A stretch of 64,000 nt of DNA from Halostella salina (GTDB lineage: Archaea; Halobacteriota; Halobacteria; Halobacteriales; Natronoarchaeaceae), in contig NZ_RCIH01000003.1 of NCBI RefSeq assembly GCF_003675855.1, positions 372,001 to 436,000 on the forward strand, given 5' to 3'. The notes beneath the pieces are model-generated. The model worked only from the letters and a program-made list of their open reading frames with translations. It ran no database searches and was not told where the DNA came from. Each line of letters opens with the position of its first letter. Position 1 is the first letter of the stretch. Below are positions 6,380-17,982 of this stretch, one piece after another. A program made the translations under genes and the position numbers.

Positions 6380-6571
6380 GGTGGACAACAGTCCGTACGA
6401 CCGGATATTCCAGTACGGTCTCTCGTTTGCTCGGTCAAAGGTGTTTGTACTCGGTCGGCGTGCCACCGAAAGAGGGTGATCGTGTGCAAGAATTCGCCCA
6501 CCGGCGTCAGTACGCTCAAGGAAAAGTTATTATGAGTTGGGTGCGGGAACGTGTTGTGTGGAGTGTTGCCA

Positions 6572-7684
6572 ATGGGTGTATCTGAAACGTATTCACGCGG
6601 TCGGCGGGTTGTCGTAGAGCAACCGTTCGCCATCGTGGTCGGCCTCGTGGCCGTCTGGATGGCGTGGTTTCTCATCGAGGGCCTGCTCACCGGGCGAATC
6701 CAGTTCAGCGACGTAGGCGGCTACGTCTGGGACGGCCTGATGCGCGGTCTGGTCGTTGGACTCGCCGGTGTCGGACTCTCGATGACGTACAGTATTCTCA
6801 ACTTCGCGAACTTCTCACACGGGGACTACCTCACGAGCGGCGCGTTCTCCGGGTGGGCGGTGACGTACCTCATCGCGGGGTACGGGAACGCCAACATCGG
6901 GTCGTTGCTGCTCGTCGGTGCCGGCGGGTCGGTGTTCGGCGGTGCCCTCAGCGTCGGCATCGTCACGTCCCCCCTCGCCGTGATAGTCGGGGCGCTCGTC
7001 GCCGGGGCGTCGACGATCGTGCTCTCGCTGGTGATCGACCGGTTCGTGTACAAACCGATCCGCGACGAGAGCGGGATCGCTCTGCTCATCACGAGCGTCG
7101 GCGTCGCCTTCGCGCTCCGATACCTGATGCAGTTCGTCTTCGGCCCGGGCGTCCGGGGCACAACTGACGCCGGGAGTCAGCCGGAGTGGAGCCTCCTGTT
7201 CATCGACGGCACGGTGTTCGTCCACGCACACGACATCACGCTGCTGGTCGTGGCCGTGTCGCTGATGCTCGGCGTCCACTTCCTGCTCCAGCGGACCAAA
7301 CTGGGCAAGGCGATGCGCGCGATGTCGGACAACGAGGACCTCGCCCGCGTCACCGGGATCCCGACCGAGCGGGTCATCCGTTCGACGTGGATCATCGGCG
7401 GCGGGCTGACGGGGATCGCCGGCTACATGTTCGTCCTCTGGAAGGGGACGCTCGGCTTCAACGACGGCTGGTTGCTCCTCCTGCTCGTGTTCGCCGCGGT
7501 CATCCTCGGCGGCATCGGGTCGATATACGGGGCGATCGCCGGTGGCATCATCATCGGGCTGACCGCCTCCACCTCCGTGATCTGGATCCCCTCGGCGTTC
7601 GGCCGGGCGGCGGCGTTCCTCGTGATGATAACCATCCTGCTGTTCAAGCCACAGGGCATCTTTAGTGGGAGGTCGACAGCATGA
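6572..7684 (+). CDS. livH: Branched-chain amino acid-type ABC transporter permease LivH
   Basis: A 370-residue permease with eight to nine membrane segments. The ATG at 6572 is preferred to a GTG at 6551; a TATA-like AGTTATTAT at 6525-6533 precedes it. LivH features include LSMTYSILNFANFSHGDYLTSGAFSGW in the first half (split here for length) and the cytoplasmic ATPase-coupling loop GKAMRAMSDNEDLARVTGI around 250-268. The C-terminus LLFKPQGIFSG is typical of the family. It opens a four-gene operon with LivM, LivG and LivF, each starting in an ATGA overlap. It probably imports branched-chain or related amino acids or short-chain amides; specificity would be set by the binding protein encoded convergently at 10752-12068. 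Confidence 0.93.
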   Translation: MGVSETYSRGRRVVVEQPFAIVVGLVAVWMAWFLIEGLLTGRIQFSDVGGYVWDGLMRGLVVGLAGVGLSMTYSILNFANFSHGDYLTSGAFSGWAVTYLIAGYGNANIGSLLLVGAGGSVFGGALSVGIVTSPLAVIVGALVAGASTIVLSLVIDRFVYKPIRDESGIALLITSVGVAFALRYLMQFVFGPGVRGTTDAGSQPEWSLLFIDGTVFVHAHDITLLVVAVSLMLGVHFLLQRTKLGKAMRAMSDNEDLARVTGIPTERVIRSTWIIGGGLTGIAGYMFVLWKGTLGFNDGWLLLLLVFAAVILGGIGSIYGAIAGGIIIGLTASTSVIWIPSAFGRAAAFLVMITILLFKPQGIFSGRSTA

Positions 7685-9075
7685 GCGAGACCGAAAGCAC
7701 GGGCGGTGGCGACAGCGGCAACCCGCTCGTCGACTTCCTCAACCGGGACCCCGGACTGGTCCTGGCGGTGCTGGGTGGCATCTACCTGGTGTACATCCTC
7801 TCGGGCGTGATCTTCGGGTTCACGCTCCGTGGACAGCTCAACACGGTCGCCAACCTCACGTTCTTCATCGGCGTGTTCGGGATGCTGGCCCTCGCGTTGA
7901 ACCTCCACTGGGGATACACGGGGCTGTTCAACATCGGCATCGTCGGGTTCATGGCGATCGGCGTTTACGTGACCGCGATAGTTTCCAAGCCGCCGGCGGG
8001 ACAGGGCGGCGCGGCGCAGATCGGCGGCCTCGGCCTGCCGCTCGGCGTCGGCGTGTTCGCCGGCGTCCTCGTCGCCGCGCTGTTCGGACTGCTGGTTGGC
8101 CTGCCCGCGCTCCGGTTGCGGGCCGACTACCTGGCGATCGTGACGATCGCCTTCTCCGAGATCATCCGGTTCACGCTGATGTCGCGGACGTTCCAGACGT
8201 ACCAGCTGCCCGATACGATCGACCTGTGGCTGTTTACCATCGACCCGGCCGCGGACACGATCGGGCTTGGCGGCGGCGGGGGGCTCATCCTCAACTACAC
8301 GCAGCCGCTGGAGGCGATCCTCCAGACCCTGTTCCTCTGGGGTCCGTATCTCGGCTTCGTCGACTTCGTCCAACAGAACTTCATCTCGAACAACCCCAAG
8401 CCGGTCATCGACGGGCTCACGTACGGCCTGATCCTGTTGCTGACCTGTGGGCTGTTCTACTGGCTGCTCACCCGGACCGGCTCGTCGCCGTTCGGCCGCG
8501 TCCTCAAGGCGATCCGCGAGGACGAGGACGTCGCCAACGCCCTGGGGAAGAACACGAACCGCTTCAAGCTGAAGTCGTTCGTGTTCGGCTGTGCGCTGAT
8601 GGGGCTGGGCGGCATCCTCTGGTACGCCGGCCGCGGGAGCATCACGCCCCCGTCGTTCCGGCCGAACATCACGTTCTACATCTGGATCGCGCTGATCATC
8701 GGCGGGGCCGGCTCCAACACCGGGAGCTTCCTCGGCGGAGCTGTCTTCGCGGCGGCGCTGTACGAGGGTCCGCGGCTCGTCAAGAACCTCGTCGAGGCGG
8801 CGGTCGGATCCCTCGAAGGCCCGGGTGGCTTCGGACCGGCGATGGCCGCCATGGGTTCGTTCGACCCGTGGCCGATGCTGGCGTACACGCTCAACAGCAT
8901 CAGCCAGCTTCGACTGGTAATCATGGGGGTCGTCCTCATCTGGTTGATGCACAACCGGCCCGAGGGGATGCTCGGTCACCGCAAGGAGACCGCGTCGAGC
9001 ATCGACCTCTCTCGGCCCGAAAGTAGCAGCACGGAGTCGGACGCGACGGCGGCGGACGGAGGCGAGCAACAATGA
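7681..9075 (+). CDS. livM: Branched-chain amino acid-type ABC transporter permease LivM
   Basis: A 464-residue permease partner of LivH. After a hydrophilic Ser/Gly-rich start it has eight to nine membrane spans. The diagnostic LivM segments are ALNLHWGYTGLFNIGIVGF near residues 72-90 and the coupling loop GRVLKAIREDEDVANALGK near 271-289. The region RLRADYLAIVTIAFSEIIRF near 142-161 is also typical. At 464 residues it is longer than bacterial LivM because of an expanded periplasmic loop around 180-260 and a polar tail rich in Ser and Asp, as seen in haloarchaea. Start overlaps livH and stop overlaps livG by four bases each. Confidence 0.93.
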   Translation: MSETESTGGGDSGNPLVDFLNRDPGLVLAVLGGIYLVYILSGVIFGFTLRGQLNTVANLTFFIGVFGMLALALNLHWGYTGLFNIGIVGFMAIGVYVTAIVSKPPAGQGGAAQIGGLGLPLGVGVFAGVLVAALFGLLVGLPALRLRADYLAIVTIAFSEIIRFTLMSRTFQTYQLPDTIDLWLFTIDPAADTIGLGGGGGLILNYTQPLEAILQTLFLWGPYLGFVDFVQQNFISNNPKPVIDGLTYGLILLLTCGLFYWLLTRTGSSPFGRVLKAIREDEDVANALGKNTNRFKLKSFVFGCALMGLGGILWYAGRGSITPPSFRPNITFYIWIALIIGGAGSNTGSFLGGAVFAAALYEGPRLVKNLVEAAVGSLEGPGGFGPAMAAMGSFDPWPMLAYTLNSISQLRLVIMGVVLIWLMHNRPEGMLGHRKETASSIDLSRPESSSTESDATAADGGEQQ

Positions 9076-9905
9076 GCGGCACCACCAACACGACCGACGG
9101 ATCGAGCCTCTCACAGGGCGATGTCGACACAGACGATGAGACCCCGCTCGAAGTCGAGGGGCTGCGCAAGACGTTCGGCGGCATCACCGCCGTCGACGAC
9201 GTCACCTTCGGCGTCGAGAAAGGGTCGATCACCGGGCTCATCGGCCCCAACGGTGCCGGGAAGTCGACGACGTTCAACCTGATCACCGGGATGCACGACG
9301 CCGACGGCGGCACGGTCCGGTTCAACGGCGAGGACATCACGGGGCTCCCTCCTCACGAGATCGCGAACCGGGGGCTCGCTCGCACCTTCCAGATCGCCCG
9401 GGAACTGGAGGAGATGACGGTGCTGGAGAACATGATGCTCGCGCCCAAGGGCCAGATCGGCGAGGCGCTGTGGCGCTCGATCGCGCCCGGCGCGCGCGAC
9501 AACGTCAAGCGTCAGGAGGCCGAGCATCTCGAACGGGTGTGGGAGGTGCTCGACTTCTTCGAGATCGACCACCTCGCCGACGAGTACGCGGAGAACCTCT
9601 CGGGCGGCCAGCGGAAGCTGCTGGAGATGGCCCGCGCGCTGCTGACCGATCCGGACGTGCTCCTGCTGGACGAGCCGTTCGCCGGCGTCAACCCCTCTCT
9701 GGAGAAGCGCCTGCTCAAGCACATCCACGAACTCCGGGAGGATGGCTACACCTTCCTCATCGTCGAGCACGACATGGATCTCATCATGGAGAACTGTGAG
9801 CGTGTCATCGTCATGCATCAGGGCCGGGTGCTCAAGGACGGTACCCCGGCGGAGGTCAAGGAGAGCGAGGACGTCATCGAGGCGTACCTCGGGGGTGAAG
9901 TATGA
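9072..9905 (+). CDS. livG: Branched-chain amino acid-type ABC transporter ATPase LivG
   Basis: A 277-residue nucleotide-binding subunit. Walker A GPNGAGKST lies at about residues 58-66, the signature LSGGQ at about 176-180 and Walker B VLLLDEPFAGVNP at about 195-207, followed by the H-loop IVEHDMD. The long insert between Walker A and the signature (GARDNVKRQEAEHLERVW) is characteristic of LivG as opposed to LivF. An acidic stretch of about 30 residues precedes the domain. It energises the LivH/LivM pore together with LivF from the same operon. Confidence 0.95.
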   Translation: MSGTTNTTDGSSLSQGDVDTDDETPLEVEGLRKTFGGITAVDDVTFGVEKGSITGLIGPNGAGKSTTFNLITGMHDADGGTVRFNGEDITGLPPHEIANRGLARTFQIARELEEMTVLENMMLAPKGQIGEALWRSIAPGARDNVKRQEAEHLERVWEVLDFFEIDHLADEYAENLSGGQRKLLEMARALLTDPDVLLLDEPFAGVNPSLEKRLLKHIHELREDGYTFLIVEHDMDLIMENCERVIVMHQGRVLKDGTPAEVKESEDVIEAYLGGEV

Positions 9906-10606
9906 GCCTGCTCGAAGTCCGCGACCTGGACGCCGGGTACGGCGACCTCCAGATCCTCACGGACGTCGACCTCGACGTCGGCGACGAGGAGTACGTCACC
10001 ATCGTCGGCCCGAACGGGGCCGGCAAGTCGACCGTGATGAAGTCCGTGTTCGGGCTGACGACCCACATGGGCGGGACGATAACCTTCGCCCGGGAGGACA
10101 TCACCGGTATCGAACCGGAGGACGTCATCCACAAGGGGATGGGCTACGTCCCGCAGAGCGACAACGTGTTCGCCGAGCTGTCGGTCCGGGAGAACCTGGA
10201 GATGGGCGCGTACATCCTCGATGAGGTGCCCGAGGACGCGCTGGCGGAGGTGTACGAGCGGTTCCCCATCCTGGAGGAGCGCGAGGACCAGAAGGCCGGC
10301 ACGATGAGCGGCGGCCAGCAGCAGATGCTGGCGATGGGCCGGGCGCTGATGCTCGACCCCGACCTGCTCCTGCTGGACGAACCAAGCGCCGGGCTTGCCC
10401 CGGATCTGGTCGACGAGATGTTCGACAAGATCGACGAGATCAACGACAACGGGACGGCTGTCCTGATGGTCGAGCAGAACGCCAAGGAGGCGCTGAGCCG
10501 CTGTGACCGCGGCTACGTGCTCGCCAACGGCCAGAACAGGTACGTCGACGAGGGCGAGAAGCTGCTGAACGACGAGGAAGTCAGAAAGCAGTTCCTCGGC
10601 GGCTGA
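9902..10606 (+). CDS. livF: Branched-chain amino acid-type ABC transporter ATPase LivF
   Basis: A 234-residue ATPase, the standard LivF length. It has Walker A GPNGAGKST at about residues 37-45, signature MSGGQQQMLAMGRAL at about 138-152, Walker B LLLLDEPSAGLAP, and H-loop region MVEQNAKEAL. The dimer would pair with LivG. It is the last gene of the operon. A 145-bp spacer without a gene separates it from the convergent substrate-binding protein gene, and a T-rich stretch shortly after the stop (TTCTTTTGCCGCTGTTTTGC) could end transcription. Confidence 0.95.
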   Translation: MSLLEVRDLDAGYGDLQILTDVDLDVGDEEYVTIVGPNGAGKSTVMKSVFGLTTHMGGTITFAREDITGIEPEDVIHKGMGYVPQSDNVFAELSVRENLEMGAYILDEVPEDALAEVYERFPILEEREDQKAGTMSGGQQQMLAMGRALMLDPDLLLLDEPSAGLAPDLVDEMFDKIDEINDNGTAVLMVEQNAKEALSRCDRGYVLANGQNRYVDEGEKLLNDEEVRKQFLGG

Positions 10607-10751: not shown

Positions 10752-12068
10752 CTATCCGCTCGACAGCGCCGAGTCGATGACGTTGGAGTACGACGACGCG
10801 CCGATGTTGAAGCTGATCTGGTCGTACACCTCGCCGTCGAACGACTGCTCGAACACGTTGGTGAAGCGGTTCGAGAGCTGCTGGCCGTAGTCGTTGTTGA
10901 CGTACAGCGTCGCGGCCGTCTCGGCACCGAGCCGTTCGGAGGCGACCTGTGCCATCACGCGGCCCTGCAGCTGGTCGCTCGGCGCGGTGCGGAAGATGTA
11001 GTCGTCGTCGTCGAGGTTCGTCACCGACAGCGCGGTGCTGGACGGGGAACAGCCGACGATCTCGTTCGGGATGAACGCCTCCTGACAGACGGGGACGTTC
11101 ACGCCGGACGACGCTGTGCCGTTGACCGCGGGGACGCCGCCGCTGATGAGCGACTCCGCGCCGCTGACCCCCTGGTCGGGGGAGGTCTGGGTGTCCTCGA
11201 ACTGGACGTTCACCTCGAGGTCCAGGTCGGAGTTGTTCACCTGCATGGGCGGGATCTCGGAGGCGTTGATCATCGGCCCACCGGTCGACGCCAGGTCACC
11301 CGTCTCGGGGAGCAGGATGCCGAGTTCGATGGTGCGGCCCAGTCCGCCCGGCGAGCTATCAGCCGACGGGCCGGAACCTCCGGGGTTCTCCCCGGAGAAG
11401 TTCTGGGTCTCCTGCACGTCGACGGTGTCGGCGTCCTGGCCGGCGAACTCCCAGATCTGGTACGCCGCGGAGGCGGGGTCGCCGTTCTGGTCGAAGTTCA
11501 CGGCGCTGGACGCGCCCTGGTAGTTGATGTTCTCGCCGTTGGCGGCGGCCTCGACCGCTGAGACGAACTCGCTGGGCCCGTACTCGGTACCCTCGGGGTT
11601 GGCCATCCGGCGCATCTGGTCGCGGACAGCCGTCCCGTCGTTCTCGCCGGCCGCAGCGTTGGCGAGGATGAGGATCGCGCTGGAGTCGTACGACTGGGAC
11701 GTGAACACGCCCGGCGACGACCCGTACTCGTCCTCATAGAGGCTCGCGAACGCCTCCTGGTTCGGACCGCCCGCCGCCGGTGCCGTCCCGGTGACGTTGT
11801 TCATATCGTTCCCCACCTGTCCCGGCAGCGCCGGGTCCTGCAGGCCGTCGGGAATGAGGATGTCCTCGGAGCCGTCGGAGGCGCTGTAGTAGTCGCGGAA
11901 CAGCTGGATACCGCTCTCGGGGTAGCCGATGACGGTCAGCAGGTCGGGACCGCTCCCGCCGTCACCGCCGCCGCCGTTCTCCTCGCTACCGATGCAGCCG
12001 GCGACGCCGAGCATCCCAGCGGCACCGGCACCCTTCAACACGTCACGCCTTCTCACACGGTATGACAT
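10752..12068 (-). CDS. Circularly permuted type 1 substrate-binding lipoprotein of the liv ABC transporter
   Basis: A 438-residue Tat lipoprotein: RRRDVLKG at residues 6-13 and lipobox GVAGC with Cys25, then a Gly-rich linker. The mature part is in the wrong order for a LivK-like (Peripla_BP_6) protein. Residues 41-225 (PDLLTVIGYPESGIQLFRDY onward) match the second half of such proteins. After a Gly/Pro/Ser linker at 226-244, residues 245-438 begin with TIELGILLPETGDLASTGG, the usual mature N-terminus. They end at SSYSNVIDSALSSG, which normally runs directly into DLLTVIGYPE. All expected parts are present once, so the fold should form with new termini in lobe 2. It is convergent with livHMGF and most likely serves it. 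Order is read directly; permutation is inferred from family knowledge. Confidence 0.88.
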   Translation of the reverse strand: MSYRVRRRDVLKGAGAAGMLGVAGCIGSEENGGGGDGGSGPDLLTVIGYPESGIQLFRDYYSASDGSEDILIPDGLQDPALPGQVGNDMNNVTGTAPAAGGPNQEAFASLYEDEYGSSPGVFTSQSYDSSAILILANAAAGENDGTAVRDQMRRMANPEGTEYGPSEFVSAVEAAANGENINYQGASSAVNFDQNGDPASAAYQIWEFAGQDADTVDVQETQNFSGENPGGSGPSADSSPGGLGRTIELGILLPETGDLASTGGPMINASEIPPMQVNNSDLDLEVNVQFEDTQTSPDQGVSGAESLISGGVPAVNGTASSGVNVPVCQEAFIPNEIVGCSPSSTALSVTNLDDDDYIFRTAPSDQLQGRVMAQVASERLGAETAATLYVNNDYGQQLSNRFTNVFEQSFDGEVYDQISFNIGASSYSNVIDSALSSG

Positions 12069-12299: not shown

Positions 12300-12893
12300 T
12301 CACACCTCGCGGCACTCCGCACAGACGAGTTGCCCGTTGAACTCCCGAAGCGTGTCGGCGAGCGCGCCACACGTTTCACAGACTCCCTGGTCGGCGTAGC
12401 CGCCGTTTCCGTTCGGCTCCGTCCGGGCGCGGGCGTCGCGCTGCCCCCCATCGACCGGCGTTCCGCCGACCGAGTTGTCGGCGAGCGGCGCGGCCGGATT
12501 GGACTCGGGCGCGGAGGCGGTGGCGGTGGCCGCGATCACGTCGCGCTCGGTCAGCACGCCGACGACCTCGCCGTCGTCGGTCACGACCAGCCTGCGGACA
12601 CGCTCGCGGGACATCTTCCCGGTCGCCGTCCTGAGTCCCTCGTCCGCGGGGACGGTGAGCACCGGCTCCGACATCACCGAGGCGACGGTCGTCTCCGCCG
12701 GGTCGGCCTCGTCGGCGACGAGTCCGAGCACGTCCCACTCGGTCAGCACGCCGACCGGGTCGCTGCCCCGGAGAACGACCACGCTGCCGGACTCCTCCTC
12801 GCGCATCAGCCGGACCGCGCCGAGGACGGTGTCGGACTCGCTGACGCCGACGTACTCCCTGGTCATCACGTCCCTGATCGTCACGCTCTCCAT
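12300..12893 (-). CDS. Paired CBS domain protein with C-terminal zinc ribbon
   Basis: A 197-residue protein. Two CBS domains fill residues 1-125: the first starts IRDVMTREYVGVSESDTVLG and includes VGVLTEWDVLGLV, and the second starts VASVMSEPVLTVPADEGL and includes VGVLTERDVIAA. Such pairs bind adenine nucleotides or related ligands. An unstructured Pro/Asn-rich linker leads to a C-terminal zinc ribbon of the form CxxC at about 172-175 and CAEC at about 191-194. The ligand and target are unknown. A TATA-like ATTTTAG at about 12924-12932 (minus strand) precedes the gene. Confidence 0.9.
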   Translation of the reverse strand: MESVTIRDVMTREYVGVSESDTVLGAVRLMREEESGSVVVLRGSDPVGVLTEWDVLGLVADEADPAETTVASVMSEPVLTVPADEGLRTATGKMSRERVRRLVVTDDGEVVGVLTERDVIAATATASAPESNPAAPLADNSVGGTPVDGGQRDARARTEPNGNGGYADQGVCETCGALADTLREFNGQLVCAECREV

Positions 12894-13106: not shown

Positions 13107-13427
13107 TCAGGCGGGGTTGTGCTCGGGGTCCTCGCCCTGCGGGTGGTACTCCCAGAAGTCGCCTTCGCGCATCGCACGGCCGACGCCCTTGTGGAAGGAG
13201 ACGATGTCCTCGAACTCGTCCTCGCGGACGTGTTCGAACACGTCGGCGACGCTGACGACGCGGCGGTGGTTGAGCCGGAGCGGTTCGTCCCCGTGCTCCG
13301 CGACGAACTCGTCGACGTCGAGCGGGAAGCCCTCGTCCTCGTCCAGCTTCTTGGCGAGGATCGCCATCCCGTACTTCCGCATCCCTTCGCTGCCTTCGTC
13401 GCCGTCGGGGTCGTGGGGCCAGTCCAT
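13107..13427 (-). CDS. DUF5785 family haloarchaeal protein
   Basis: A 106-residue protein that starts MDWPHDPDGDEGSEGMRKYG, the typical opening of the haloarchaeal DUF5785 family; 13 extra codons upstream are excluded. The middle has FPLDVDEFVAEHGDEPLRLN and VVSVADVFEHV, and the C-terminus ends FWEYHPQGEDPEHNPA. It is soluble and acidic without a recognised catalytic motif. Function is unknown. It lies between the CBS protein and the CoA-transferase on the same strand; 12894-13106 upstream of the CBS gene contains no gene. Confidence 0.85.
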   Translation of the reverse strand: MDWPHDPDGDEGSEGMRKYGMAILAKKLDEDEGFPLDVDEFVAEHGDEPLRLNHRRVVSVADVFEHVREDEFEDIVSFHKGVGRAMREGDFWEYHPQGEDPEHNPA

Positions 13428-13515
13428 GACGGGACCTGTGAACGGGCGGCGCAAAAGGATTTCCATAGCGTCGATCCGGCGGCCGACAGCCGACCTCGGA
13501 GGTTCGCCCGGCCAG

Positions 13516-14682
13516 TCAGTCGTCGTCGGCCGTCCGCACCGGGCCCAGTATCTCGCCGCGGTGTTCGTCCAGCAGCGGCGCGCGGTCGCCCGGCTCCGGC
13601 GGCGTCTCGGTCATCTTGATCGGCGTTCCGGCGACGGTGACCTGCCGGTCCGCACCCGGTTGGTCGACCTCGACCAGCATCTCCCGGTTGCGGACGTGCG
13701 GGTCGTCGAACACGTCGGCGGTGTCCTGCACCGGCGCGACCGGGATGCCGTCCAGCGTCTCGACCACCTCGTCGGTCGTCCGGTCGGCGGTCCACGCGGC
13801 GATCGTCTCGCGGAGCGAGTCGCGATTGCGCAGGCGGCTCCCGGCGTCGGGGTAGTCGGCCGCGAGGTCCGGGCGGTCCATCGACTCGCACAGCGCGGTC
13901 CAGTGGTTGTCGCCGAACGCCGCGACGACGACGTGCCCGTCCGCGGTTTCGAAGGCGTTGTACGGGAACAGCGTCGGATGAGCGTTCCCGCGCCGCGTCG
14001 GTGACTCGCCGGTGTAGGAGTACTGGTACACCGTCCGCTCGCACAGCGAGAGGATCGAGTCGTACATCCCGGTGTCGACGAACTGGCCCTCGCCGGTCCG
14101 CTCGCGGTGGTGGACCGCCGCGAGGATCCCCACGGCGTTCAGCGCCGCGGTGAACAGGTCCCCGATGCCGGGGCCGACCTTCGTCGGCGGGCCGTCCTCC
14201 TGCCCGGTGATCTCCATGACGCCGCCGAGCGCCTGCGCGACGAGGTCGAACGAGGGCTGGCCCTGCCGGTGCGTCTCGCCCGTGCGCGGGTCGCCGAAGC
14301 CGCGGATCGCGCTGTACACGAGTTCGGGGTTGCGCTCGCGGAGCCGCTCGTAGCCGAGCTCGAACCGCTCCATCGTCCCGGCGCGGTAGTTCTCGACGAC
14401 CACGTCCGCGCGCTCGACGAGGTCGAGGAACGCCTCGCGGTCGGCGTCGTCCCCGAGGTCGAGTTCCAGGCTCCGCTTGCCGCGGTTGACGCTCTGGAAG
14501 TAGCCGCCGTACGCCTCCGCCTCGGGATCCTCGGCAAAGGGCGGGTTCGACCGGATGAGGTCGCCGCCGGGCCGTTCGATCTTTACCACGTCCGCGCCCA
14601 TGTCCGCGAGCAACATCGTGCAGTACGGGCCGGCGAGCACCTGCGTCAGGTCGAGCACGCGCAGGTCGTCGAGCGCTCCCAT
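13516..14682 (-). CDS. Class III CoA-transferase, probable succinyl-CoA:mesaconate CoA-transferase
   Basis: A 388-residue CaiB/BaiF family protein, close to the usual 390-410. The N-terminus has VLDLTQVLAGPYCTMLLADMGADVVKIE, the family signature, with the CoA-binding ENYRAGTMERFEL segment and the catalytic Asp region GDLFTAALNAVGILAAVHHR following. Class III transferases use a covalent aspartyl-CoA intermediate. Its position, divergent from the glutamate mutase operon, supports the methylaspartate-cycle role of moving CoA from succinyl-CoA to mesaconate. Substrate specificity is inferred from context. TATA-like CTATAG at 14719-14724 lies upstream on this strand. Confidence 0.88.
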   Translation of the reverse strand: MGALDDLRVLDLTQVLAGPYCTMLLADMGADVVKIERPGGDLIRSNPPFAEDPEAEAYGGYFQSVNRGKRSLELDLGDDADREAFLDLVERADVVVENYRAGTMERFELGYERLRERNPELVYSAIRGFGDPRTGETHRQGQPSFDLVAQALGGVMEITGQEDGPPTKVGPGIGDLFTAALNAVGILAAVHHRERTGEGQFVDTGMYDSILSLCERTVYQYSYTGESPTRRGNAHPTLFPYNAFETADGHVVVAAFGDNHWTALCESMDRPDLAADYPDAGSRLRNRDSLRETIAAWTADRTTDEVVETLDGIPVAPVQDTADVFDDPHVRNREMLVEVDQPGADRQVTVAGTPIKMTETPPEPGDRAPLLDEHRGEILGPVRTADDD

Positions 14683-14765
14683 ACGGCTTCCTGCGTCGAC
14701 CCGCCCGAAAAACCTTGGCTATAGATCGTTAACATTGTGGTTGTCTCTCACATCCATATCAAAAG

Positions 14766-14800
14766 ACCATTAAGGAGTATTATCATGAAAAACCATTAGG
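14766..14800 (+). promoter_or_regulatory. Direct repeats before the glutamate mutase operon promoter
   Basis: ACCATTAAGG at 14766-14775 and ACCATTAGG at 14792-14800 form a direct repeat with 26-bp spacing. The second copy directly abuts a TATA-like TTTATTG at 14801-14807, about 30 bases before the mutS start. The interval between the divergent CoA-transferase and mutase genes is unusually A/T-rich. This looks like a regulator site for the cycle genes; the regulator is not identified. Confidence 0.45.
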
Positions 14801-14834
14801 TTTATTGGGCCGGTCGCGGTCCGTGGTGGTACCG

Positions 14835-15272
14835 ATGGCCCAGACAGTCATCCTCGGCGTTATCGGGTCGGATGCCCACGTCGTCGGCATCACGATCTTG
14901 GAACAGACGCTGGACGCGGCCGGGTTCGACGTCGTCAACCTCGGCGTCCAGAGTTCACAGGCTGAGTTCGCGAGCGCTGCGGACGCACACGACGCCGAGG
15001 CGGTACTGGTCTCCTCGCTGTACGGCCACGCCGAACAGGACTGCCGGGACTTCCACGACACCCTCGCCGAACACGGGGCCGACGCGGTCACCTACATCGG
15101 CGGGAACCTCTCGGTCGGACAGACCGACTTCGCCGAGACGCGGGAGCGGTTCCGCCGGCTCGGCTTCGACCGGGTCTTCGACTCCGAGACCGACCCGGAG
15201 GAGGCGGTCGCCGCTCTGCGACAGGACCTGGGGATCCACAGCACGGAGCCCGACGAACGGGTTCGCGCGTAG
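14835..15272 (+). CDS. glmS: Glutamate (methylaspartate) mutase small subunit, B12-binding
   Basis: A 145-residue cobalamin-binding protein, matching the 130-150 residues usual for GlmS/MutS. The B12 motif DxHxxG is present as SDAHVVG at about residues 13-19, and the second part SSLYGHAEQDCRDF and YIGGNLSVGQ match the GlmS loop regions. With GlmE it interconverts L-glutamate and 3-methylaspartate using adenosylcobalamin. ATG 14835 is favoured over an upstream ATG at 14805, as it gives the normal first strand and sits about 30 bases after a TATA box. It is first in a five-gene operon. Confidence 0.96.
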   Translation: MAQTVILGVIGSDAHVVGITILEQTLDAAGFDVVNLGVQSSQAEFASAADAHDAEAVLVSSLYGHAEQDCRDFHDTLAEHGADAVTYIGGNLSVGQTDFAETRERFRRLGFDRVFDSETDPEEAVAALRQDLGIHSTEPDERVRA

Positions 15273-15278
15273 CGACGC

Positions 15279-16721
15279 ATGACACGCGACGAACGCCTGC
15301 CCCCCGAGGAGTTGCGACGCATCGACGAGTCCGTCCGGAGCGACTGGCCGACCGGCGAGACGGTCGACTTCGAGGCGGCGGTCGCCTACCACGAGTCCCT
15401 GCCCGACGGGAAGCGATTCGCGCGCGTGCTGGAGTCGGCGGACCGCCCGCTCCTACAGCCACGCGCCGGCGTCCCGTGTCTCGACGACCAGATCGAACTG
15501 CTTCGTCACCTGGAGCGCGAGGGACTCGCGGACCTGCTCCCGACGACCATCGACTCGTACACGCGCGACAACGAGTACGAGAAGGCCCAGCAGGGGCTGG
15601 AGGAGGCCCGCGAGACCGGCGAGGACGCGCTCAACGGCTTCCCGGCGGTCAACCACGGCGTCGACGGCTGCCGGGAGCTGATCGAGGCGCTGGACCGCCC
15701 GATAGAGGTGCGCCACGGGACGCCCGACGCGCGCCTGCTCGCCGCCGTCACGTTCGCCGGCGGGTTCGAGAGCTTCGAGGGCGGGCCGATCTCCTACAAC
15801 ATTCCCTACACGAAGGAGGACGACCTGGAGACGACGATCGAGCACTGGCAGTACGTCGACCGCCTCGCCGGGGCGTACACCGAGCGCGGCGTCCGGATCA
15901 ACCGCGAGCCGTTCGGCCCGCTGACCGGGACGCTCGTCCCGCCGTGTATCGCCATCGCGGTGATGCTCGTGGAGGGGTTGCTCGCGGCGACACAGGGCGT
16001 CCGCTCGCTCACGCTCGGCTACGGACAGGTCGGCAACGTCGTGCAGGACGTGGCCGCCCTGCGCGCGCTCCGCGAACTCGGGGAGGAGTACCTCCCCGAC
16101 GCGGTGACCGTGACGACCGTCTTCCACGAGTGGATGGGCGGCTTCCCGCCGGACGAGGCCCGCGCCAGCGGCGTCATCGGGCTCGGCGGCGCGACGGCCG
16201 CCATCGCACAGCCGGACAAGATCATCACGAAGTCCCCGCAGGAGTTCCAGGGCGTCCCGACGAAGGAGGCCAACGCCGCGGGGCTTCGCACCACCAGACA
16301 GCTGATCGACATGCTCATCGAGCAGGACATCGACATCGACGGCATCGACGAGGAACAGGAGCTGATCGAGCGGGCGACACACGACCTGATGGATGCGGTC
16401 GACCGGCACGGCAACGGCGACGTGGCCCGGGGCGTAGTCGGGGCGTTCGAAGCGGGCGATCTGGACGTGCCTTTCGCCCCGAGCGACAGCGCGGCGGGCG
16501 ACGTGCTCCCCGCCCGCGACGACGACGGTCGGGTCCGGATCTTCACGTTCGCGGACCTCGCGGTGAGCGACGAGATCAAGGAAGTCCACGGCGCGCGCCT
16601 CGCCGACCGGGCGCGCACCGAGGACCGCGACCGCTCGTTCACGATGGTCGCCGACGACGTCGACGCTATCAGCGACGGGAAGCTCATCGGCCGCCCCGGA
16701 GGTGGCACGGATGCGGATTGA
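15279..16721 (+). CDS. glmE: Glutamate (methylaspartate) mutase large subunit E
   Basis: A 480-residue homologue of GlmE/MutE, the TIM-barrel subunit that binds glutamate and the adenosylcobalamin base. Characteristic segments are LLPTTIDSYTRDNEYEKAQQ, ALNGFPAVNHGVDGC, VRHGTPDARLLAAVTFAGGF and GGPISYNIPYTKEDDLE, all in the first 200 residues. It begins six bases after glmS and its last eleven bases overlap the next gene, fitting co-translation. It carries out the first committed step of the methylaspartate cycle when paired with the upstream small subunit. Confidence 0.96.
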   Translation: MTRDERLPPEELRRIDESVRSDWPTGETVDFEAAVAYHESLPDGKRFARVLESADRPLLQPRAGVPCLDDQIELLRHLEREGLADLLPTTIDSYTRDNEYEKAQQGLEEARETGEDALNGFPAVNHGVDGCRELIEALDRPIEVRHGTPDARLLAAVTFAGGFESFEGGPISYNIPYTKEDDLETTIEHWQYVDRLAGAYTERGVRINREPFGPLTGTLVPPCIAIAVMLVEGLLAATQGVRSLTLGYGQVGNVVQDVAALRALRELGEEYLPDAVTVTTVFHEWMGGFPPDEARASGVIGLGGATAAIAQPDKIITKSPQEFQGVPTKEANAAGLRTTRQLIDMLIEQDIDIDGIDEEQELIERATHDLMDAVDRHGNGDVARGVVGAFEAGDLDVPFAPSDSAAGDVLPARDDDGRVRIFTFADLAVSDEIKEVHGARLADRARTEDRDRSFTMVADDVDAISDGKLIGRPGGGTDAD

Positions 16722-17982
16722 GCGCGTCAGCGCCGTCCCGACGGTCTCGGGCTTTTTCTTCGACGACCAGCGGGCGATCACCGACGGCGCGACACGCGAC
16801 GGGTTCACCTACGAGGGCGACCCCGTCACGCCGGGCTTCGACCGGATTCGCGAGGCCGGCGAGGCGCTGTCGGTCGACCTCGAACTTTCGGACGGGGCCG
16901 TCGTCTCCGGCGACTGCGCCGCCGTCCAGTACTCGGGAGCCGGCGGGCGCGACCCGCTGTTCCGCGCCGACCGCTACGCCGACGCCGTCGAGGGACCGGT
17001 CGCCGACGTGATCGCGGGCCGCCCAGCCGACGCGTTCGCCGAGAACGCGGCCGTCGTCGAGGACCTCCCGCCGGTCGAGAGCGGCGGCGACCGCCTCCAC
17101 ACCGCAGTCCGGTACGGTGTCTCGCAGGCGTTGCTCGCGGCGGCCGCCCACGCCCGACGGACGACGCGGACCGACGTGCTCGCCGACGCGCTCGGCACGA
17201 CGCCGGCCGACCGCCCCGTACCGGTGTTCGGCCAGTCCGGGGACGCGCGCCGGGAGAACGCCGAGAAGATGCTCGTCAAGGGCGTCCCCGTCCTCCCGCA
17301 CGGCCTGTTCAACGGCGAGGGGAAGGTCGGCGAGGACGGCGGGAAACTGGTCGACTATCTCGGCTGGCTGTCGACCAGAGCCGAGGAACTCGGCCCGGAG
17401 GACTACGCGCCGCGGTTCCACGTCGACGTGTACGGCACGCTCGGCGACCTGTTCGGGCCGCCGTACGACCGCGAGGAGGTGGCCGACTACTTCGCCGACC
17501 TGCGCGCGGCGGCCGCGCCGTACCCGCTGCAGGTCGAGGGGCCGATGGACGCCGGCGGGCGCGCTGAACAGATCCACGCGATGGCCGAACTCCGCGACGG
17601 TCTCGCGGACGCCGGCGTCGGCGTCGATATCGTCGCCGACGAGTGGTGCAACACGGCAGACGACGTGCGGGCGTTCGTCGACGCGGGCGCGGCGGACGTG
17701 GTCCAGGTGAAGACCCCCGACCTCGGTGGTATCCAGCGCTCCGGCGAGGCCGTGCGCTACTGCGAGGGGACCGACACCCGTGCCTACCTCGGCGGCACCT
17801 GCAACGAGACGGTCACGTCGGCACGCGCCTGCGCGCACGTCGCGCTCGCCACCGACGCCGCGCAGGTGCTGGCCAAGCCCGGGATGGGGTTCGACGAGGG
17901 GTACATGGCCGTCACGAACGAGATGCGCCGCACGCTCTCGCGTCGGACCCGCGACGCGCCGGAGGTGACCGCCGGTGACTGA
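16711..17982 (+). CDS. mal: Methylaspartate ammonia-lyase
   Basis: A 423-residue member of the enolase superfamily, matching the roughly 410-residue MAL family. ATG 16711 gives the family N-terminus MRIERVSAVPTVSGFFFDDQ. Hallmarks include KMLVKGVPVLPHGLFN near residue 188, the metal-ligand region VEGPMDAGGR, and the C-terminal VQVKTPDLGGIQRSGEAVRY with the catalytic Lys, then LGGTCNETVTSARACAHVAL. It eliminates ammonia from 3-methylaspartate to give mesaconate. It overlaps the glmE stop and shares an overlap with the hydratase start. Confidence 0.96.
   Translation: MRIERVSAVPTVSGFFFDDQRAITDGATRDGFTYEGDPVTPGFDRIREAGEALSVDLELSDGAVVSGDCAAVQYSGAGGRDPLFRADRYADAVEGPVADVIAGRPADAFAENAAVVEDLPPVESGGDRLHTAVRYGVSQALLAAAAHARRTTRTDVLADALGTTPADRPVPVFGQSGDARRENAEKMLVKGVPVLPHGLFNGEGKVGEDGGKLVDYLGWLSTRAEELGPEDYAPRFHVDVYGTLGDLFGPPYDREEVADYFADLRAAAAPYPLQVEGPMDAGGRAEQIHAMAELRDGLADAGVGVDIVADEWCNTADDVRAFVDAGAADVVQVKTPDLGGIQRSGEAVRYCEGTDTRAYLGGTCNETVTSARACAHVALATDAAQVLAKPGMGFDEGYMAVTNEMRRTLSRRTRDAPEVTAGD

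Follow-up and report, generated by a model that had tools for sequence, protein, structure and literature searches.

Reversed halves in a LivK-type binding lipoprotein of Halostella salina: a circular permutation that probably arose more than once at a single haloarchaeal locus

The 64,000-nucleotide stretch of DNA analysed here (the window; Halostella salina, contig NZ_RCIH01000003.1, positions 372,001 to 436,000) encodes a substrate-binding lipoprotein in which the two halves of a type I periplasmic-binding fold follow each other in the reverse of the usual order. This locus raises the question of whether such an order is real and, if so, how it came about and how often. Natural circular permutations are usually viewed as a single ancient event between very distant proteins. 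The features of the gene and of its surroundings are collected in Table 1; the open reading frame, the strand and the residue numbers given in the initial annotation, which had called the protein circularly permuted, match the translation.

Table 1. The binding-protein gene, its parts and its neighbours, numbered from the first nucleotide of the window.
Feature	Position	Strand	Basis
Gene for a permuted type I substrate-binding lipoprotein, 438 aa and a stop codon	10752..12068	(-)	translation; Pfam PF13458/PF01094
Tat signal peptide RRRDVLKG... and lipobox VAGC, residues 1-25	11994..12068	(-)	sequence
Gly-rich tether, residues 26-40	11949..11993	(-)	sequence
C-half in first place, residues 41-225 (about LIVBP 194 to C-terminus); contains Y49 and D74	11394..11948	(-)	
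Linker ENPGGSGPSADSSPGGLGR, residues 226-244, from old C-terminus to old N-terminus	11337..11393	(-)	
N-half in last place, residues 245-438 (from the usual mature N-terminus as far as about LIVBP 193); contains S321 and T345	10755..11336	(-)	
livH-like permease (BPD_transp_2)	6551..7684	(+)	
livM-like permease (BPD_transp_2)	7681..9075	(+)	
livG-like ATPase	9072..9905	(+)	
livF-like ATPase, its gene converging on that of the binding protein in almost every relative, whichever the order	9902..10606	(+)	
CBS-domain protein, upstream; neighbour kept at permuted and normal-order loci	12300..12893	(-)	
DUF5785 protein; neighbour kept at both kinds of locus	13107..13466	(-)	

The reversal of the halves is apparent with both Pfam and phmmer. 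Peripla_BP_6 and ANF_receptor are the only Pfam families that the 438-residue protein matches; residues 246-438 align with positions 1-190 of the Peripla_BP_6 model (PF13458) and residues 41-225, taken as an isolated segment, with positions 195-312, in each case above the cut-off. In its native order the protein scores 102.4 bits in two stretches, versus 109.0 bits in one continuous stretch over model positions 1-312 when the halves are swapped, a comparison that the initial annotation had proposed. In the same way, phmmer aligns the protein with T. maritima LivK (PDB 3td9) in two out-of-order segments (residues 245-435 with 15-201, and 41-160 with 205-327). Both Pfam and a search of the genome return one copy of each half, as had been claimed, and the gene is the single full-length copy in its genome; since each half is present once, a truncation or a duplication is ruled out. 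The protein thus departs from the canonical N-to-C order of the type I HAAT/Peripla_BP_6 family, of which it is a topological variant. Alignment to E. coli LIVBP puts the break near residue 193/194, where it had been placed before; by the usual domain limits we take this position to belong to lobe 2, and with those limits the claim that the new ends lie in lobe 2 stands as well. The protein begins with the signal and lipobox stretch RRRDVLKGAGAAGMLGVAGC and, judged by motif only (the Tat motif and the lipobox VAGC), would be exported and lipid-anchored. The length of the tether that follows varies widely among relatives.

The arrangement is common in Halobacteria. Scanning species genomes gave 80 loci, and in all 80 the two halves lie in one frame with the C-half ahead of the N-half; by their record titles all are from Halobacteria, and they cover many genera. 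Another species of the genus carries a gene that is 91% identical and likewise permuted. Chance is excluded by the identical half order of these 80 loci and the congeneric gene. By our count, about 108 of 242 Halobacteria genomes have a colinear permuted gene, and the search for the same breakpoint in haloarchaea that had been suggested earlier recovered the permuted order in many genomes, with the break within a few residues. We found no NCBIfam model of the permuted order and, in literature searches, no haloarchaeal case of a permuted binding protein; profile-based annotation labels these proteins as plain Liv-type binders and misses their topology.

Some variation was seen within this set. 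A Tat motif together with a lipobox-like pattern is present in 131 of 141 permuted ORFs, about ten being without a lipobox-like Cys. Members of both orders that have the Tat motif without this Cys (L055, L064, L069, L070, L075, L079, L102, L132 and L134) are probably not lipid-anchored. At L064, L069, L070 and L151 (Haladaptatus and G128) two permuted genes stand in tandem, the copy next to livF being without the lipobox Cys. L147 (G131) has a permuted gene at one locus and, at another, a homologue in the normal order that is accompanied by a livHMGF of its own, and both kinds are present at locus L018. At L157 (7076-9874) a transposase-like ORF (8198-9364) splits a permuted gene that is of L088 type; in the query, the two pieces of the gene have a few residues in common, as would follow from a target-site repeat.

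In the other Halobacteria genomes the search gave two matches in the opposite order, and the ORFs extracted there proved to be normal-order genes, as a rule 45-62% identical per half to the H. salina protein. Where these lie at the same locus (for example L118-L121, L124 and L138), they read signal, N-half, C-half without an internal linker, and their junction is intact at the point that forms the ends of the permuted protein, e.g. LQSALSNDPDTLVV. Loci of both orders have a common neighbourhood, with the CBS-domain and DUF5785 genes upstream, then the binding protein and then the convergent livF-livG-livM-livH, so that genes for LivH/M permeases and LivG/F ATPases accompany that of the binding protein. 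The earlier suggestion that a non-permuted ancestor with a different domain pairing might explain the order has failed, the relatives being normal-order orthologues. Outside Halobacteria only the normal order was found among the matches listed. Because no other order was seen outside the class in these matches and both orders occur at one locus within it, sequence comparison indicates that the permuted state is derived and that the gene was rearranged in place. Farther along the window lies a methylaspartate-cycle cluster (13516-17982), with a succinyl-CoA:mesaconate CoA-transferase gene on the (-) strand and genes for the S and E chains of methylaspartate mutase and for methylaspartate ammonia-lyase on the (+) strand. 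Among relatives of either order, some also have genes of this cycle beside the binding-protein locus, and a link between the ligand and the methylaspartate pathway is possible.

A tree of the binding protein, built on re-rotated sequences, divides the permuted rows into several groups: the main clade, with H. salina among its 31 rows; L088, L090, L156, L183 and L184; L178 and L181; and L185. The order changes four times on this tree over the 5-95% bootstrap range, and a single change was seen in 0/200 bootstrap trees. Within the main group the linker hardly varies, ENPDGAGPSADESPGGLG, and the alignment of permuted proteins shows several Pro, Gly and Arg columns conserved to 90% or more; for these reasons it is probably a structural element rather than a loose spacer. 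Between the main, L088 and L178 groups the linkers are unlike, EFGAELTDEDNAAVAEDPVGVDDG and DFSSSGEIPQPEPSGSGSDAG being impossible to match to the main type; that of L185 is somewhat like the main-group linker. All permuted groups break within a few residues of one helix-strand loop. At least three groups of permuted genes can be told apart, their linkers unlike and their breakpoint the same.

Topology tests on the whole protein reject one permuted clade (p-AU 0.0105), and the N-half by itself rejects both one clade (0.005) and every pairwise merger of the groups (AU p 0.003-0.013). With the C-half by itself, a single permuted clade fits no worse than any other tree (p-AU 0.51), and so does the L088 group placed with its normal-order relatives (p-AU 0.44); the C-half is therefore uninformative, lacking power, and is not contrary to several origins. 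The linked LivHMGF proteins serve as an independent test: in their tree the order changes three times, each time on a supported branch, and a single clade of permutants is rejected with p-AU 1.1e-6 in a test on 37 rows pruned from a 55-row set, with L018 left out and the simpler model LG+G4. The placement of L185 differs between the trees, being separate in that of the binding protein and with L178 and L181 in that of LivHMGF. Since one clade is rejected by LivHMGF, by the N-half and by the whole protein, and since the linkers are unlike, at least three in-place permutations are favoured, though not proven, over one origin with recombination. We lean clearly towards the reading that one orthologous gene at one locus underwent three or more independent permutations, each at the same lobe-2 helix-strand loop, which were then fixed in large clades.

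In the alternative of a single permutation, some lineages would have had their N-half and transporter genes replaced later, by recombination with normal-order loci. Such an exchange would fit the breakpoint common to all groups, the tolerance of the C-half for one clade and the partial resemblance of the L185 linker to the main group, and the N-half is indeed the part of the permuted gene that adjoins the transporter genes, on the livF side. However, the linkers would be expected to travel with the C-half or the junction, and they are unlike in the main, L088 and L178 groups; the C-half accepts the L088 group with normal-order relatives equally; one clade is rejected by both the N-half and the transporters; and if a normal-order gene had been the replacement, surplus C-halves would be left over, of which the extracted ORFs show none. 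We consider this history unlikely.

Whichever way it arose, the permuted chain is predicted to fold. AlphaFold2 models of permuted sequences are confident (pLDDT 90.7, pTM 0.90, linker region about 78-96), modelling being a check that the initial annotation had proposed, and the same holds for a second permuted group with another linker (pLDDT 89.1, pTM 0.89). In Foldseek searches LivK-type proteins come top with only about 192-197 of 399 columns aligned in sequence order, a half-chain alignment as expected for a permutant. The chain would run from a lobe-2 strand to the old C-terminus, enter lobe 1 at the old N-terminus by way of the linker of about 19 residues, and end just before its starting point; the tether would hold lobe 2 rather than lobe 1. 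Because the old C-terminus (lobe 2) is joined to the old N-terminus (lobe 1), a fourth interlobe crossing is predicted to be required.

The pocket appears to be retained. LIVBP residues S79, T102, Y202 and E226 correspond to S321, T345, Y49 and D74 of the permuted protein; we take S79, T102 and E226 to be amino-acid pocket residues, and since the ligand residues come from both halves the pocket must reassemble. S321, T345, Y394 and D74 are present in 39/39 dereplicated permuted sequences, Asp replacing Glu226, and 37 of the 42 columns conserved in normal-order proteins are retained in permuted ones. The PDB sequences nearest to the permuted protein are Leu/Ile/Val binders, and an amino-acid-type binding protein for LivHMGF is the likely identity. 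The product would be the extracytoplasmic substrate-binding lipoprotein of the adjacent HAAT-type ABC importer, which would fold, bind an amino-acid-like ligand and feed the permeases as the normal-order proteins do. It is improbable that the permuted protein has instead become a sensor or scavenging receptor that is no longer part of an importer, the permutation reflecting that change: the livHMGF operon adjoins nearly every permuted locus and the pocket residues are unchanged, even if the missing lipobox Cys of some permuted members and the two tandem copies of Haladaptatus would suit such a role.

A fusion of halves from different paralogous binding proteins is very improbable. Two-part architectures can come from fragment fusion, and several Liv-type paralogues are present in these genomes; however, the main permuted clade consists of the same 31 rows in the trees of both halves, with support of 95 for the N-half and 99 for the C-half, and both halves are closest to one positional orthologue family at the same locus. 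An assembly or annotation artefact in the H. salina genome, which the initial annotation had named as grounds for refutation, can be dismissed, as the same order recurs in independent assemblies from many genera, including the complete chromosomes CP040678, NZ_CP085301 and NZ_CP122312.

Taken as a whole, the explanation that we hold with good confidence is that of a LivHMGF binding lipoprotein with a permuted type I fold and an importer role, probably rearranged in place at least three times. In the standard route to permutation by duplication, tandem copies fuse and the outer halves then drop out (PMC3320104). Here, tandem duplication and fusion would have come first, the old tether region becoming the linker, and the outer halves of the fused copy would then have been lost; this course is probable. 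The L185 linker, GGSDGGGGSDSIPGSSSD, is rich in Gly, Ser and Asp and resembles a lipoprotein tether, as expected if the tether of the second copy became the linker. Duplicated intermediates with three or four halves, and free halves, were absent from the extracted ORFs. Half-only matches in L076, a metagenome contig, and in L157 were considered as free halves and rejected, the permuted gene having a frame break in the former and an IS-like insertion in the latter. Re-anchoring cannot be the whole reason for the permutation, since about ten permuted ORFs are without a lipobox-like Cys and proteins of both orders are mostly Tat lipoproteins with long tethers.

The setting in which the permutation is found offers close orthologues of both orders, about 45-62% identical, at one locus in many culturable relatives. 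Such pairs allow direct tests of how a permutation arises, of whether it is neutral, and of anchoring as a driver. If at least three permutations did take place, they would amount to a repeated, convergent topological re-wiring of the binding protein of a transporter, and would provide replicate normal and permuted pairs with which to test selection for an anchor on the other lobe.

Among the closest known systems are the normal-order haloarchaeal orthologues, which have the per-half identity given above and the same flanks and differ by their signal-N-C order and the absence of a linker. LIVBP/LeuBP and other Peripla_BP_6 proteins (HAAT; PDB 3td9, 4n0q and 2liv) have in common with the permuted protein the family, the fold, the pocket equivalents S79/T102/Y202/E226 and LivHMGF neighbours, and, unlike it, these HAAT binders have the normal N-to-C order. 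DNA methyltransferases and swaposin are natural permutants for which duplication is the standard model, with duplication intermediates documented for the methyltransferases (PMC3320104); their folds are unrelated to that of the binding protein, and no intermediate was found in the haloarchaeal case.

Treponema pallidum TpMglB-2 (Tp0684), with its relatives, is the nearest precedent. Its crystal structure is described as circularly permuted, and a 'Type Ic / Cluster Bc' was proposed for it; a fourth lobe crossing is needed, ligand binding and conformational change were shown experimentally, and its authors suggested that anchoring favoured the topology (PMC4990184). Like the haloarchaeal protein, it is a natural permuted type I lipoprotein beside its own ABC transporter genes. 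TpMglB-2 is a bacterial sugar binder related to MglB, whereas the haloarchaeal protein belongs to the LivK/HAAT type and is not MglB-like. The break also differs: in TpMglB-2 it lies in the N lobe, the first three strands having moved to the C-terminus, and in the haloarchaeal protein at about LIVBP 193/194, in lobe 2. The moved part of TpMglB-2 is about 13% identical to MglB, whereas both haloarchaeal halves are clearly homologous to normal-order orthologues; the accessible text describes no close normal-order orthologue of TpMglB-2 at the same locus, and in haloarchaea one is present. The origin of TpMglB-2 is remote (PMC4990184); several origins are likely for the haloarchaeal permutation. 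A permuted type I binding protein thus has a published precedent, and what is surprising here is the likely recurrence of the permutation at one site and one locus.
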